A stretch of DNA of 64,000 nt from an uncultured Paenibacillaceae bacterium. GTDB lineage: Bacteria; Bacillota; Bacilli; Paenibacillales; K13. Where the stretch lies: assembly GCA_913056365.1 (NCBI GenBank), contig CAJXLT010000001.1, positions 992,001-1,056,000 on the forward strand, written 5' to 3'. Positions within the stretch are counted from its first letter, which is position 1. Every line of letters starts with the position of its first letter. A program made the position numbers and the translations under genes. This document shows, piece after piece, positions 609-6,592 of the stretch. Under the pieces are notes generated by a model. The model was not told the origin of the DNA and searched no databases. It saw only the letters and a list, made by a program, of their open reading frames with translations.

Positions 609-678
609 AATATAAATTTGGATTGCTAATTATCTGAACATTTGCTATGCTTCTATTAAATAGAGCAAGTTCATCGAT

Positions 679-771
679 ACGGCAAACTTGTCGAAAGACA
701 AGGACGCAAAGCTACAGGGCCTTCCTTACTATCGTAGATTACGAGAATAAGATGGCAGCCAGCTGCCGAAG
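679..771 (+). ncRNA. c-di-GMP-I (GEMM-I) riboswitch upstream of the sortase
   Basis: The conserved GEMM-I blocks occur in order: GGCAAAC (681-687), a P2 hairpin capped by a GAAA tetraloop (ACTTGTC-GAAA-GACAAG), GGACGCAAAGC (702-712), then ATGGCAGCC on the second arm and a closing TGCCG that pairs with CGGCA at the start. This aptamer class binds cyclic di-GMP. Shortly after the closing strand comes a U-rich run (778-791), which suggests control by transcription termination before the sortase start at 816. Whether ligand turns expression on or off is not readable from sequence alone. Confidence 0.9.
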
Positions 772-815
772 TGTACTGCTTTTTCTTTTTTTGTGTAACT
801 TACGAGGCGGTGCAT

Positions 816-1469
816 ATGAAGATCAAGATTACATCCGGATTGTTGATTGCCGCAGGTATTTTGTTACTACTCTATCCTCGCGCAACTGCTTGGTATTATG
901 ACAATCAGCAGCAGAAGTTAGTTGAAGAGTGGCAGGAGGCTTTTGCTACTGTACAAGTTTCTTATGAGCAAGCTGATGATGCTGCAGCTGCCGTTCAACC
1001 AGAGTCATTACAGACAGAGATTTCTATGGAAGAAGAACCTGAGCCGAATCGCGATGCTGTACAGCTGGATCTGAACATGGAAGGCATGCTCTACATTGAC
1101 AAGATTGAGTTGAAGCTTCCGATTCTGACTGGTGCTACAGAAGAGAACTTGAACACGTCTGCTGCTAGTATTGCAGATACAGGAATGCCGGGCGAGGCAG
1201 GCAATTATGCCATCGCCGGTCACCGCAATCGTGATTTCGGTCGGAACTTTAACCGCTTGGATGAGCTGGTGGAAGGCGACTTCATCGATGTCGATACTGG
1301 CGAACAGCTGTACCGCTATACGGTTACGGACAAGCTGTATGTCGAACCGCACGAAGTATGGGTGCTCGATGCAGAAGGGTCAGAGAAGGAGATCACGCTA
1401 GTCACGTGCCATCCGATTGATACCGGAACACATCGATTGATCGTGAAGGGCAAGCTCATAGATACGTAG
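816..1469 (+). CDS. Class D-like sortase
   Basis: This is a membrane-anchored transpeptidase that cleaves a C-terminal sorting motif and joins the protein to the cell wall or to a pilin. The chosen start ATG 816 has GAGGCGG five bases upstream; an upstream in-frame ATG at 771 lies at the riboswitch end and is unlikely. The 217-residue protein has an N-terminal membrane segment (about residues 5-22), an acidic linker, then the sortase barrel with catalytic His136 (AGHRN), Cys198 (TLVTCHP) and Arg207 (THRLIV). TLVTC is typical of sortases. The likely client is the LPKTG protein at 2651. Expression is probably governed by the c-di-GMP riboswitch directly upstream. Confidence 0.92.
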   Translation: MKIKITSGLLIAAGILLLLYPRATAWYYDNQQQKLVEEWQEAFATVQVSYEQADDAAAAVQPESLQTEISMEEEPEPNRDAVQLDLNMEGMLYIDKIELKLPILTGATEENLNTSAASIADTGMPGEAGNYAIAGHRNRDFGRNFNRLDELVEGDFIDVDTGEQLYRYTVTDKLYVEPHEVWVLDAEGSEKEITLVTCHPIDTGTHRLIVKGKLIDT

Positions 1470-1508
1470 TGTTCAAGTGATAATTGCATAGAAGATTTCT
1501 CAACCGAT

Positions 1509-1592
1509 AAAGGCAAATCTAATGAAAATTAGAGACGCAAAGCTATAGGGCCTTCCTTACCTAGTAAGATGGCAGCCAGTTTCCGAAAGGAG
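1509..1592 (+). ncRNA. c-di-GMP-I (GEMM-I) riboswitch upstream of the transglutaminase-like gene
   Basis: A second GEMM-I aptamer shows GGCAAA (1512-1517), a short P2 hairpin with a GAAA loop (CTAAT-GAAA-ATTAG), GAGACGCAAAGC, GGGCCTTCCTTAC and ATGGCAGCC in the expected order. It closely resembles the copy at 679-771 but has a shorter P3. The AAAGGAG ribosome site of the next gene starts directly after the closing strand and no U-run follows, so control at translation initiation is more likely here than termination. Confidence 0.88.
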
Positions 1593-1600
1593 AATTCGTC

Positions 1601-2401
1601 ATGAGACAATGGAATAAGCTGTTAGTCAGTATGATGCTCTGTATTTGGCTAGTCCCCGCTGCTGTATTTGCTGAACAAGCGCAGCCTACAATCGACTATG
1701 ATGAGCAGGCGGAGGGTATCGTTACGATCCATCTGCCAACCGAAACTGTGGACAAGTATAAGATTCGGATTAGCAAGGATGAGGAGCATTATACGTATGA
1801 CGCTGCATCCTACAATGTATTTCCGTTGCAGATGGGCGATGGCGACTATATCATCCTAATGCTGGAACAAGTAGCAGGCAATAAGTATAAATTAATCGAA
1901 CAAGCGAAGATTTCATATACCGCACAATCAGCTGAAGACATCTACTTGCAGTCTGTGCAGAATGTGCAATGGAACGAAACGATGGAACTTGCTAACAAGG
2001 CAGCAGCGCTTACGAAGGACGCACAGTCTGAGGAGGCGAAGATTGCGGCGATCTATCAGTTCGTTGTCAGCCAAGTGACATACGATAATGAGAAGGCAAG
2101 CCGTATCCAGAGTGGTTATATCCCGTCAGCAAAGCTTACGTATGAGTCGAAGTCTGGCATATGCTATGATTACGCTTCCTTATTCGCTGCAATGCTGCGG
2201 AGCGTGGACATTCCTGCTAAGCTGGCAATGGGACATACGACGACGGTTGACGAGTACCACGCTTGGAACGAAGTGTATATGAAGGAGAAGGACGAGTGGG
2301 TTATCATTGACACGACATATGATGCCGCTTTTGTCAATCAGGATGGGAAGCCATCGATGATGAAGGATTCCGATGATTATGTGAAGAATCGAGTCTATTA
2401 A
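1601..2401 (+). CDS. Secreted transglutaminase-like (papain-fold) protein
   Basis: A signal peptide (about residues 1-25, ending AVFA) exports this 266-residue protein. The C-terminal half is a transglutaminase-like core with the catalytic triad visible: Cys188 in KSGICYDYASL, His220 in DEYHAWNEVY and Asp237 in WVIIDTTYD. Members of this superfamily act as amide-crosslinking enzymes, proteases or deamidases; which one cannot be told. Its place between a sortase and a giant adhesin, and its own c-di-GMP riboswitch, suggest it processes or crosslinks surface proteins. Start ATG 1601 follows AAAGGAG with normal spacing. A terminator follows at 2448. Confidence 0.88.
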   Translation: MRQWNKLLVSMMLCIWLVPAAVFAEQAQPTIDYDEQAEGIVTIHLPTETVDKYKIRISKDEEHYTYDAASYNVFPLQMGDGDYIILMLEQVAGNKYKLIEQAKISYTAQSAEDIYLQSVQNVQWNETMELANKAAALTKDAQSEEAKIAAIYQFVVSQVTYDNEKASRIQSGYIPSAKLTYESKSGICYDYASLFAAMLRSVDIPAKLAMGHTTTVDEYHAWNEVYMKEKDEWVIIDTTYDAAFVNQDGKPSMMKDSDDYVKNRVY

Positions 2402-2447
2402 ATATCGAGTTTATTCTAATCCTAACAAGGAATTGGGTTGGAATTGA

Positions 2448-2471
2448 GGCACGCCAATGGGCGTGCCTTTT
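2448..2471 (+). terminator. Rho-independent terminator after the transglutaminase-like gene
   Basis: A perfect 8-bp stem (GGCACGCC, loop AATG, GGCGTGCC) is followed directly by TTTTGTT. It separates the riboswitch-controlled pair from the adhesin, which therefore probably has its own promoter in 2472-2650, although no clear -35/-10 pair stood out there. Confidence 0.85.
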
Positions 2472-2650: not shown

Positions 2651-5600
2651 ATGGAACGGAGGGAACACAACAAATTGCAATGGTGGAAAAAGTCGTGTGT
2701 ACTATTCCTTGTCTTCGTATGGATCTCGCATACTTGGACAGGCATCGGCATGAACGCCGTACACGCAGCGGGAACAGAAATTTCCGAGAATATATTGACG
2801 AATTTGCAGGTCACGATGACAGATCACAATCAATCGGTGACCTATGCTGTGTATGACAATCCAGATGATGCCGAGATCGATGTAAATTGGGAACAGGATG
2901 CGACGGTGAAGCTGGAGTATGATTGGGCGTTGCCGAATGATCACGGATATACCGACGGTGATACGTTCACATTCGAATTGCCTGAACAGTTCGAATTGTT
3001 CTCTGGCAGCCTGCAGTTCTCATTGGATGCAGCAGAAGGTGCAGTCGGCACATTCGAAGTCGATCATGTGACGAATGAAGCCGTCATGACATTCAATGAG
3101 CAGATTGAAGAATTGGAGAACATTCAAGGATCGTTATGGTTCGAAGCAGGGCTAGATAAGGATACGTTCCTGAATGAAGTGACGCAAGAGATTGTGTTCG
3201 AGGTGAAGGGCGAGCAATTCTTAGCTTTCACCGTCCACTTCAAGCCTGATATCGATAGTCCAATTACGAAGACAGGCGCTGCGCAGCCTGGCGCATTCAA
3301 TGCGAAGAGCATTAACTGGACAGTAGACGTCAATAAAGTAACAGATGCAGTATATGGTGCGCTATTGACAGATGAGCTGCCGGACGGATTGGAGCTCGTT
3401 CCAGGCTCAATTGAAGTGTATGAGCTTGATGTAAAGCTGGATGGCACGGTCGTGCCTAAGCTGCCTGCTGTAGACCCTTCCGCTTATACGATGACACCGA
3501 CAGCATCCGGTTTCACTGTCTCCTTAGGTACGATTGAGCATGCTTATCGGATTCAATATGCCACTACTATTATTGACCTAGAGGAGCTTTCTTTCGAGAA
3601 TACAGCGACCTTCACTCACGATGGCGACCCAACTGGCGTTGTTGCTGTTGCAGGTGTTGCTGTTGAACGGGGCAGTCACTTGAGCAAGCGTTCAAGCAGC
3701 TACAGCCGAGCGTCACAAACAATTAGTTGGGAAATTGCATACAATTATGACGAGGAAGATGTCGCTGCACCGGAGCTGCTCGACCTGTTCGATGTGGAGC
3801 AAGAGCTTGTTGCTGGATCTCTGCAAGTACTTCCTGTTGATCTAGATTCAAATGGCCATGCATCGACTGGTCCGGCACTCACAGCAGGAGTTGATTACAC
3901 CTTGACTACTGTTGCTCCTGGATCTCCTGAGGCTGGTGCTGATCAACATGGATTCAAGCTGACATTCAGTAATCCGATCAATACCGCATATAACATTGTG
4001 TATCAGACGAAAGCAGTGAATCCGGTACAGATTCCCGGTACGATTACGAACACTGTATCCGAGACGGTGTATGGTGGAGCTGAAGGGATTGGTACAAGGT
4101 ATATTCAACCGTTAGTGTTGGAGAAGTCTTGCGGACCTATCGATTATGAGAAGCAAACGATCGATTGGACACTACAGCTGCATGGTCAATCGAACAACTT
4201 ACCTGCAGGTGTAGTACTGGAGGATCAGCCGGGTGATAATCTAGCTTTCATCTATGATTCATTGGAAATCCGTGATGAAACGAACAACTTGGTGAATCCA
4301 TCCGTGTACGATGTCGTGTATACGACGAATTACGCCGATCCGTTCACGATTACTTTCACGAATCCAGTGACTGAGCATTATACGGTTACTTATGCAACTT
4401 ATTATACGGACCTGACCGGCGGTATCGACAGATTTACGAATCAGGTAAGTGTGGACTGGCCAGGAGATGATACGTTCGCAAATAGCTATCAATCTGTCAC
4501 CCGCAATTGTACGCCAGTTACGCACGTACAGAACAATGGCTTCAAGGATGGAAGCTATTCAGTTCTTGATCGCGAAATTACTTGGGAAGCAGGATTGAAT
4601 TACAACAGCATGGACATTACAGATGCTGTGATTGTAGATGACCTGCTGTACGGGCAAACGTTAGTCCCAGGTTCGATCGAGCTTGCGCCAATGACGATTC
4701 TGCCGGATGGTACGTACACAATTGGCGCCACGCTGCCAGAATCAGAATACGTTAATGACAGCACAGATGAACAAGTACGAATAGAGCTTGGTTTCATCAA
4801 TACACCCTATTATCTAACTTTCAAGACTACCTATGAGGGGGCACTCATTAATGAGGCACAGATCGATAATACAATGATGTTGCTTTCCGATACGGATCAA
4901 GTCGGCAAGGAACTGACCGCTTCGGTCACGATCCCTCATGGCGGAGAATATGTATCCAAGTCTGGTGTACAGGATGGTCCTAACATGGATTGGACTGTAT
5001 ATATCAATCGCGGACTGTCCTATGTGGAAGAAGCACGTATAGTCGATTACCCGAGCAACAACCAACTGCTGCTGCCGGAGACATTCAAGCTGTACAGTAC
5101 AGATATTCTTGGCAATGGCACTGTAATCAAAGATACAGAATTGTCCGAAGATGCATATTCGTTGGACATTACGAGTGATGAAGTTACAGGTACGCAAAGC
5201 TTCGAACTGACATTTGTCGATCCGATCGATACCGCTTATATACTCGAGTATGAGACGCTGATTGATGCGGATCACGGTGAGACGGTCACCAATGAAGTGC
5301 AATTCGATGGCGAGAATATTGATGAAGTGACGAAGCTGGTTGAAGATGAAGTAATTGTCTCCTTTTCATCAGGCGGCGGAACAGGCAGTGGAATTAATCG
5401 TAAGTTAACCGTCCACAAAGTCGATGAAGACAACCAAGCACTCTCATTGGAAGGTGCGACCTTCAAGCTAGAACGCTTCAAGAACAGCACATGGGAAGAG
5501 AGAGCTACAGGAACGACAGATGAAAATGGGGAAGTCATGTTCGAGAATCTGTTGTCTGGCACATACAGACTGACAGAGTTGTCAGCACCAGCAGGCTATG

Positions 5601-6592
5601 AATTGTTAGCTGAGCCAGAGGAATTCATCGTCTTGTTAACGGATGACGATGACATGTCTATGCAGGTGGAGAACGTGAAGATCGAGGATCCGACAGACCC
5701 AGAAGATCCAACAGACCCAGAAGATCCAACAGACCCAGAAGATCCGACAGACCCAGAAGATCCAACAGACCCAGAAGATCCGACAGACCCAGAAGATCCA
5801 ACAGACCCAGAAGATCCAACGGACCCTGAGGATCCGACAGACCCAGAAGATCCAACAGACCCTGAGGATCCGACGGACCCAGAAGATCCAACAGACCCTG
5901 AGGATCCGACGGACCCAGAAGATCCAACAGATCCAGAAGATCCAACAGACCCTGAAGATCCATCAGACCCTGAGGATCCGACGGACCCTGAAGATCCATC
6001 AGACCCTGAAGATCCGACGGACCCAGAAGAACCAACAGATCCAGAGGATCCAACAGACCCAGAGGATCCAACAGATCCAGAAGATCCATCAGACCCTGAG
6101 GATCCAACGGACTCAGAAGAACCAGTAGATACTGGTGATGATACCGAATCACCTGAATCAGATGAGGATGACACTGAGCGTAACGAACAAGTAAGGCACG
6201 ACTCGACTACGGAAGATACGCCAATTGAAGGAATCATTGAGGTGCCTGAAGGCGGCACCGTGCATATATGCCAAGAGCCGTCCAATGGAGAAGTATCTGT
6301 ACAAGATGACGGACATTGGTCCTATACTCCTGATTCCGGATTCGTAGGTGAGGATCACTTCTGCATTAGTGTGTCTGATGACACGAACGGGGAAGAGGAA
6401 TATTACTTCGAGATTGATGTGGAAGAAGTGCCTCTTGGCTCACCAGATGTTACGAACGATGGCGAACAATCAGGCACCATGCTGCCTAAGACTGGTGAAT
6501 CGAGTCATCTCATCTATTATGCTATCGGCTTCCTGTTGATTGCAGCAGGGCTAACACTTGGTTGGTCACGTAGAAGCAATCGTATGCAGTAG
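2651..6592 (+). CDS. LPXTG cell-wall adhesin with SpaA-type domain and (DPTDPE)24 stalk
   Basis: This 1313-residue surface protein has an N-terminal signal peptide (about residues 10-38, ending VHAA). It is followed by collagen-adhesin-like and repeated beta-sandwich modules of about 130 residues, each with a (T/S)I-W-(T/E) strand (ITWEAGLNYN, TISWEIAYNY, TIDWTLQLHG). A Cna-B/SpaA domain (about 914-1000, GATFKLERF to YRLTELSAPAGYEL) comes next, then 24 six-residue DPTDPE-like repeats (1013-1156) and a VCBS/cadherin-like module (about 1190-1260, YTPDSGFVGEDHF). It ends in a sorting signal: LPKTG at 1278-1282, a membrane segment and an RRSNR tail. SpaA-type domains usually form internal isopeptide bonds. 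ATG 2651 has a poor ribosome site; TTG 2675 behind GGAGGG is a good alternative that keeps the signal peptide. Confidence 0.92.
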   Translation: MERREHNKLQWWKKSCVLFLVFVWISHTWTGIGMNAVHAAGTEISENILTNLQVTMTDHNQSVTYAVYDNPDDAEIDVNWEQDATVKLEYDWALPNDHGYTDGDTFTFELPEQFELFSGSLQFSLDAAEGAVGTFEVDHVTNEAVMTFNEQIEELENIQGSLWFEAGLDKDTFLNEVTQEIVFEVKGEQFLAFTVHFKPDIDSPITKTGAAQPGAFNAKSINWTVDVNKVTDAVYGALLTDELPDGLELVPGSIEVYELDVKLDGTVVPKLPAVDPSAYTMTPTASGFTVSLGTIEHAYRIQYATTIIDLEELSFENTATFTHDGDPTGVVAVAGVAVERGSHLSKRSSSYSRASQTISWEIAYNYDEEDVAAPELLDLFDVEQELVAGSLQVLPVDLDSNGHASTGPALTAGVDYTLTTVAPGSPEAGADQHGFKLTFSNPINTAYNIVYQTKAVNPVQIPGTITNTVSETVYGGAEGIGTRYIQPLVLEKSCGPIDYEKQTIDWTLQLHGQSNNLPAGVVLEDQPGDNLAFIYDSLEIRDETNNLVNPSVYDVVYTTNYADPFTITFTNPVTEHYTVTYATYYTDLTGGIDRFTNQVSVDWPGDDTFANSYQSVTRNCTPVTHVQNNGFKDGSYSVLDREITWEAGLNYNSMDITDAVIVDDLLYGQTLVPGSIELAPMTILPDGTYTIGATLPESEYVNDSTDEQVRIELGFINTPYYLTFKTTYEGALINEAQIDNTMMLLSDTDQVGKELTASVTIPHGGEYVSKSGVQDGPNMDWTVYINRGLSYVEEARIVDYPSNNQLLLPETFKLYSTDILGNGTVIKDTELSEDAYSLDITSDEVTGTQSFELTFVDPIDTAYILEYETLIDADHGETVTNEVQFDGENIDEVTKLVEDEVIVSFSSGGGTGSGINRKLTVHKVDEDNQALSLEGATFKLERFKNSTWEERATGTTDENGEVMFENLLSGTYRLTELSAPAGYELLAEPEEFIVLLTDDDDMSMQVENVKIEDPTDPEDPTDPEDPTDPEDPTDPEDPTDPEDPTDPEDPTDPEDPTDPEDPTDPEDPTDPEDPTDPEDPTDPEDPTDPEDPTDPEDPTDPEDPSDPEDPTDPEDPSDPEDPTDPEEPTDPEDPTDPEDPTDPEDPSDPEDPTDSEEPVDTGDDTESPESDEDDTERNEQVRHDSTTEDTPIEGIIEVPEGGTVHICQEPSNGEVSVQDDGHWSYTPDSGFVGEDHFCISVSDDTNGEEEYYFEIDVEEVPLGSPDVTNDGEQSGTMLPKTGESSHLIYYAIGFLLIAAGLTLGWSRRSNRMQ
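5687..6118 (+). repeat. 24 tandem copies of an 18-bp coding repeat
   Basis: Exactly 432 bp hold 24 in-frame copies of an 18-bp unit of the form GATCCRACRGACCCWGAA, encoding DPTDPE with a few Ser-for-Thr, Glu-for-Asp and final Ser-for-Pro changes near the end. Synonymous differences (CCA/CCG, ACA/ACG, GAA/GAG) form blocks, and copies become less regular downstream. This suggests recent expansion in the upstream part. Pro/acid-rich stalks of this type span the cell wall. Unit number can change by slippage without shifting the frame. Confidence 0.97.

Follow-up and report, generated by a model that had tools for sequence, protein, structure and literature searches.

Organization of the sortase-tg-adhesin locus

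The DNA analysed here is a window of 64 kb in which an Rfam scan found exactly two matches, RS1 in the leader of a sortase gene and RS2 in the leader of tg, the following gene, which codes for a secreted transglutaminase-like protein. Both aptamers are covered by the interval 679-1592, and an adhesin gene is located downstream of tg. The features of the locus are listed below.

662-676, plus strand: 5' strand of the extended P1 of RS1 (AGAGCAAGTTCATCG), pairing with 767-784
672-771, plus strand: RS1, c-di-GMP-I aptamer in the sortase leader (RF03167, 65.3 bits; RF01051, 68.8 bits; pocket ACGGCAAA / GACGCAAA)
767-784, plus strand: 3' strand of the extended P1 of RS1 (CGAAGTGTACTGCTTTTT), leading into the U-tract
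780-792, plus strand: U-tract of RS1 (TTTTTCTTTTTTT), predicted terminator tail, read directly from the sequence and found at the same place in genome G001
816-1469, plus strand: sortase, 217 aa (PF04203, 112.9 bits in Pfam)
1497-1501, plus strand: anti-Shine-Dalgarno (anti-SD) strand TTCTC of RS2, 5' part of the extended P1, complementary to GAGAA at 1590-1594
1502-1587, plus strand: RS2, c-di-GMP-I aptamer in the tg leader (RF01051, 75.3 bits, cut-off 35, E 5.7e-13)
1588-1594, plus strand: Shine-Dalgarno (SD) sequence AGGAGAA of tg, read directly from the sequence, 3' part of the extended P1 of RS2
1601-2401, plus strand: tg, secreted transglutaminase-like protein, 266 aa (PF01841 Transglut_core, 81.6 bits; triad C188/H220/D237)
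2446-2469, plus strand: terminator-like hairpin 3' of tg (two such sites in the region versus 1.2 expected by chance)
2651-6592, plus strand: adhesin, 1313 aa, with LPKTG end, five Collagen_bind stretches, SpaA and PTDPED-type repeats; no riboswitch

The sortase domain was assigned with 112.9 bits against a cut-off of 26.6; among the NCBIfam sortase classes none reached its own cut-off for this protein, and the general model TIGR01076 alone did. Family searches of the genome to which the window belongs returned the sortase as the sole PF04203 match and the adhesin as the single PF00746 (LPXTG) match. In the adhesin, a long run of PTDPED-type repeats (5600-6150) lies ahead of the LPKTG end. No adhesin riboswitch was found in the window at gathering score in the Rfam scan, and the hairpin at 2446-2469, situated between tg and the adhesin gene, suggests that the latter may be transcribed separately. 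A promoter scan reported no sites on the plus strand. In G001, a member of the same genus and the only further genome of the family included in the comparison, the order FAD oxidoreductase, RS1, sortase, RS2, tg, adhesin, aldo/keto reductase is the same as in the window.

RS1 and RS2 are c-di-GMP-I aptamers

A preliminary description of this DNA had proposed one c-di-GMP-I riboswitch for each of the two genes, with differing expression platforms, and had named the RF01051 threshold as a check. Both elements lie well above the cut-off of 35 bits (68.8 bits for RS1 in a genome search), and chance is not an issue here because the scores far exceed the curated cut-offs. Both have a pocket of the c-di-GMP type, made up of GGCAAA, GACGCAAA and a CCGAA end; we take the pocket bases to be G20, A47 and C92 in Vc2 numbering. 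Judged by sequence and structure model, RS1 and RS2 are genuine c-di-GMP-I aptamers. Single-sequence folds of the two leaders were not more stable than those of shuffled sequences (z -1.10 and -0.53). The difference in platform was borne out as well: RS1 is followed by the U-tract at 780-792, RS2 immediately by AGGAG (1588-1592), with the tg start codon at 1601.

In the Rfam scan RS1 also matched RF03167, the c-di-GMP-I-GGC model, with 65.3 bits (cut-off 59, E 3.5e-13), and the P3 type GGGCCUUCC is common to RS1 and this model. Despite the score, the diagnostic base rules out a true GGC variant: within GACGC(A)AA, RS1 has an A where the model has its diagnostic G. As it carries GACGCAAA there and not the GGC-type GACGCGAA, we class RS1 with the ordinary c-di-GMP-I aptamers.

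The riboswitch is associated with tg across genomes

Within the order, 266 of 395 genomes contain sortase homologues. Of 60 sortase loci taken, 58 went through an Rfam scan and a phmmer comparison with tg and the adhesin. A c-di-GMP-I element was located upstream of tg in 25 of the 26 loci containing tg (the exception, L112, has tg at the edge of the locus), versus one element in the 32 loci devoid of tg (Fisher p 2.6e-15, L112 left out, the species not being independent). This one element (L111:1799-1885 in genome G082) is divergent, with 48.1 bits and GGCACA, and lies upstream of a sortase gene, the sole such case outside this genus in the 58 loci. Nothing comparable to RS1 was seen in sortase leaders beyond the two genomes belonging to this genus.

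Relatives of tg were collected by scanning genome contigs with an alignment of 21 tg sequences, and the best 80 were kept. They come from Paenibacillus, Cohnella, Fontibacillus, Brevibacillus, Bacillus, Neobacillus, Clostridium, Tissierella, Anaerocolumna and other Clostridia. Searched with a model built from 32 aptamers, 73 of these best 80 relatives showed elements in the 600 bases preceding tg, 32 as single copies and 41 in tandem. Of the 80 loci, 45 have a sortase gene and 43 an LPXTG-type tail. Given the counts in sortase loci and in tg relatives, the riboswitch, as far as sequence comparison can tell, belongs with tg across the Firmicutes and not with the sortase, where its occurrence is local. 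Of the initial proposal that riboswitches control sortase and tg together, the presence of an element at both genes stands; as the conserved partner, the sortase has to give way to tg.

An A in place of the G preceding GCAAA, a change typical of cGAMP-sensing variants, occurs in seven of 114 tg-linked elements, namely the tg-proximal ones of L149, L156, L157, L179, L186, L197 and L210.

Over 78 shared columns, the mean identity of RS1 was 0.82 to the first copies of tg tandems, 0.80 to tg-proximal copies and 0.65 to the remaining elements of the same genome; a tree of these columns did not place RS1 convincingly. Its layout is that of tandem first copies, with 662-676 and 767-784 pairing up to the U-tract, also in G001. 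The sequence grouping is suggestive of RS1 resembling a terminator-type first copy of a tg tandem. Most simply, RS1 and RS2 would together make up a typical tg tandem with the sortase gene in between, or RS1 would have arisen by copying of a tg-type element. Other elements of this genome (G000:C12:92449-92532, C7:41440-41524, C7:42866-42949 and C23:11829-11916) precede genes for a GGDEF-EAL protein, a trypsin-like protein, a chemotaxis receptor and a PA14/fn3 protein, respectively.

The aptamer flanks form a predicted extension of P1

Expression platforms of c-di-GMP-I riboswitches vary. In tg-proximal elements the best duplex formed by the 5' flank had a mean energy of -10.25 kcal/mol compared to -6.38 kcal/mol for shuffled flanks, whereas 40 control elements of the same class not linked to tg gave -7.21 versus -6.92 kcal/mol. 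At least three SD bases are paired in 59 of the 73 tg-proximal elements. In the register -k/+(k+2), 77% of the cells hold standard pairs (shuffled: 67 ± 1%), and the score for covariation at this fixed register is 0.432 versus 0.289 ± 0.017 for shuffles, with slid registers not exceeding 0.25. Pair -5/+7, for example, is C-G in 25 elements and A-T in 24. The anti-SD pairing register of RS2 covaries over 70 tg leaders; the flank duplex of RS2 itself amounts to -7.7 kcal/mol, a value equalled by 4.8% of shuffles, and both TTCTC/GAGAA of RS2 and ACTCTC/GAGAGT of its counterpart in G001 fit the P1-extension helix.

The first copies of the 41 tandems all possess a U-run. Their flank duplex is -8.89 kcal/mol (-6.26 kcal/mol shuffled), and covariation at a fixed register was not significant. 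When flanks were swapped between elements, the matched combination was modestly better in 71% of tg-proximal elements and 61% of first copies. The flank duplex of RS1 amounts to -8.0 kcal/mol, with 8% of shuffles equally good. In a transcript ending at the U-tract with P2 and P3 forced, most pairs of the outer helix had probabilities of about 0.8-0.98, and two pairs had 0.35-0.47. RS1 of G001 has a similar helix, AAGC.AGT.CAT. Taken together, tg leaders are predicted to carry a covarying P1 extension that buries the SD sequence, while in RS1 and the tandem first copies the predicted extension abuts the U-tract.

Predicted sign of the switches

The P1 extension is compatible with the aptamer, so the ligand can only strengthen the helix, which argues for an OFF switch in RS2 and, less firmly, in RS1. 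From this anatomy RS2 is probably turned off at high c-di-GMP, and the same sign seems somewhat favoured for RS1. The word 'driving' in the preliminary description implies activation and does not suit this layout, in which the extension is predicted to bury the SD sequence of tg and to adjoin the RS1 U-tract. When the aptamer was forced in 51 tg leaders, mean SD exposure was 0.33 compared to 0.29 in the free RNA, with the site more occluded in ten leaders and less so in 19; in RS2 of the window, exposure rose from 0.25 to 0.45. Thermodynamic folding, as modelled here, leaves the sign of the switch unsettled.

Adhesin-proximal elements in relatives

Seven loci contain c-di-GMP-I elements immediately upstream of LPXTG adhesin genes in the neighbourhood of tg. 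Each has a terminator of -19 to -27 kcal/mol with its 5' arm inside the aptamer 3' strand.

L163:2521-2614, adhesin-proximal element
L166:1429-1518, adhesin-proximal element
L169:815-906, adhesin-proximal element
L174:2426-2519, adhesin-proximal element
L192:190-277, adhesin-proximal element
L197:749-841, adhesin-proximal element
L203:690-780, adhesin-proximal element

By this arrangement the seven elements look like ON switches, opposite to the predicted OFF-type element of tg, and their layout is that of pilM (PMC9262584) and Bc2 (PMC4933901). L210 likewise has an adhesin-proximal element, but a terminator of this type was not detected there. At the pocket, AGCAAA is read in the adhesin elements of L163 and L210. 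Rfam scans of another 26 tg loci revealed c-di-GMP elements beside tg and nowhere else.

Fold and predicted function of Tg

With 81.6 bits against a PF01841 cut-off of 23 and an intact Cys-His-Asp triad, Tg is a member of the transglutaminase-like superfamily. C188, H220 and D237 are invariant in 21 homologues. The AlphaFold (AF2) model (pLDDT 82.9) had its best structural match in TglA of S. pyogenes (Z 14.4); putative proteases were also among the close folds, as was LapG, with a Z of 11.2 and 15% identity across 128 residues. In the predicted structure, the LapG and TglA matches indicate the fold of Tg and not its activity. The LapG (BTLCP) family model was not matched by Tg, for which Pfam gave Transglut_core and two relatives only (E <= 0.001).

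Discussion

Our working model, to which we lean by a little, is a c-di-GMP-controlled surface-adhesin module of sortase, Tg and adhesin with OFF switches, in which Tg would release the adhesin. As the conserved anatomy leads us to infer, ligand-bound aptamers would extend P1 outward. In RS2 this extension would bury the tg ribosome site, and high c-di-GMP would lower Tg; in RS1, presumably the terminator-type first copy of a tg tandem parted from RS2 by the sortase gene, it would abut the U-tract, act as a transcription terminator and lower the sortase. At low c-di-GMP, Tg, a predicted Cys-His-Asp hydrolase, may release or remodel the neighbouring LPXTG adhesin, by analogy with ZmpI, which is controlled via a riboswitch, and LapG, which is controlled via a protein. 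One point against the model is that a joint shut-off of sortase and Tg makes no obvious sense if the two act on the same adhesin, one anchoring and the other releasing it.

Alternatively, RS1 and the tandem first copies could be ON switches. The P3 strand AAAGC..CUUC of the ligand-free RNA would then pair with GAAG..GCUUU before the U-tract and cause termination, and c-di-GMP would lock P3 in the aptamer, raising sortase while RS2 lowers Tg: a tidy biology, with the anchor on and the release enzyme off. When the RS1 leader is folded free, from about 641 to the U-tract, the minimum-energy structure indeed uses this stem (AAAGC...GCUUU, abutting the same U-tract), but with a shorter leader, from 655, the P1 extension is preferred in the free RNA. 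Five first copies (L157, L170, L180, L190 and L209) have lost GCTTT, and on hand reading their 5' flank has changed along with the new 3' arm such that flank complementarity is kept with other letters. Further, in first copies anchored on AGC/GCT, inner pair 1 of the flank exceeded shuffles (0.64 versus 0.47 ± 0.08, about 2 s.d. at one pair), whereas the core pair did not; the P3 core strand, being nearly invariant, cannot show covariation. We regard an ON-type RS1 as rather unlikely and retain OFF as the favoured assignment. Far less probable still is that the two elements are merely part of a riboswitch-rich genome and adjacent without special meaning. This genome has eight c-di-GMP-I elements and G001 has 11, and within the order such elements occur in 250 of 298 genomes, but the full synteny in G001 and the conservation of the element in front of tg in relatives speak against such a coincidence, as does the mean identity of RS1 and RS2 to tg-linked elements (about 0.78-0.82), compared to 0.61-0.65 to the others of their genome.

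For Tg, the alternative to adhesin release is that of a crosslinker (transglutaminase), as the preliminary description had supposed, or of a maturation factor working with sortase and adhesin. The Transglut_core domain with its triad, the top structural match to TglA and the sortase or LPXTG-type proteins near tg in many of the best 80 loci would all suit such a role. Less fitting are the opposite signs predicted for adhesin and tg in the seven loci, as an ON-type layout on the adhesin combined with an OFF-type layout on tg is better suited to an antagonist of the adhesin; moreover, many sortase-adhesin loci of the order have no tg nearby. Because of the opposite signs we favour an adhesin-releasing protease, to which we give an even chance, over the crosslinker, which is possible but appears unlikely.

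Several known systems resemble parts of this model. In C. difficile, CD2831 is turned on by a c-di-GMP-II riboswitch and ZmpI off by a c-di-GMP-I riboswitch, and ZmpI releases the sortase substrate at low c-di-GMP (PMC4591827). The two systems share a c-di-GMP riboswitch on an enzyme gene adjoining a sortase-anchored adhesin of the collagen-binding type, and the opposite signs recur in the predictions for the seven relatives. They differ in that (i) ZmpI is a zinc metalloprotease and Tg a transglutaminase-like Cys enzyme; (ii) both riboswitches belong to class I here; and (iii) in the window the adhesin has no riboswitch and the sortase has one. In Pseudomonas, c-di-GMP governs adhesin release through a protein in the LapD-LapG-LapA system (PMC3032545). 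The transglutaminase-like fold and the Cys-His-Asp triad are common to LapG and Tg, and c-di-GMP-controlled adhesin release is the working idea in the present case; unlike there, control would be exerted here by RNA on expression, and Tg is a Transglut_core protein by Pfam. Finally, Bc2 RNA of B. thuringiensis is a c-di-GMP-I riboswitch on cap, the gene of a cell-wall-anchored collagen adhesion protein, and acts as an ON switch by antitermination (PMC4933901). It is comparable to the adhesin elements of the relatives, whereas the window has its elements on sortase and tg and none on the adhesin.

Tandem c-di-GMP-I riboswitches upstream of COG1305 genes (yebA, 'transglutaminase-like enzymes') in Bacillota were listed in 2025 (PMC12452182), and the 41 tandems among our best 80 loci are of this kind, with the same class in front of a transglutaminase-like gene; those of the window are separated by the sortase gene. 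The available text of that paper gives no sign, platform or adhesin link for these tandems. The circuit was not described in the literature consulted on transglutaminase, c-di-GMP and riboswitches, which covers subscription journals to a limited extent, and P1 extension into an SD sequence or U-tract as a platform was not met in the accessible c-di-GMP-I literature. The aptamers are ordinary RF01051 (GEMM-I) members, in agreement with that family in aptamer sequence, structure and pocket bases, to which tg leaders add the covarying 5' flank that extends P1. Relative to this literature, what is new is the gene targeted (a sortase), the splitting of the tandem and the use of a P1 extension as platform.

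More broadly, and tentatively, the locus may belong to a Firmicutes-wide RNA counterpart of the LapG and ZmpI circuits. A c-di-GMP-I riboswitch would repress the Tg protease and in certain species also turn on the adhesin of the same locus together with the sortase that follows, the ligand-stabilised P1 serving as SD-blocker or terminator; in this genus, the split of the tandem would have drawn the sortase into the OFF branch. If this idea, which we consider possible but doubtful, were true, a single recurring module of RNA plus enzyme would place surface adhesion under the control of c-di-GMP in many Gram-positive bacteria. A large family named only 'transglutaminase-like' would gain a testable job, the release of adhesins, and the window would be an example of the module rewired to take in a sortase.
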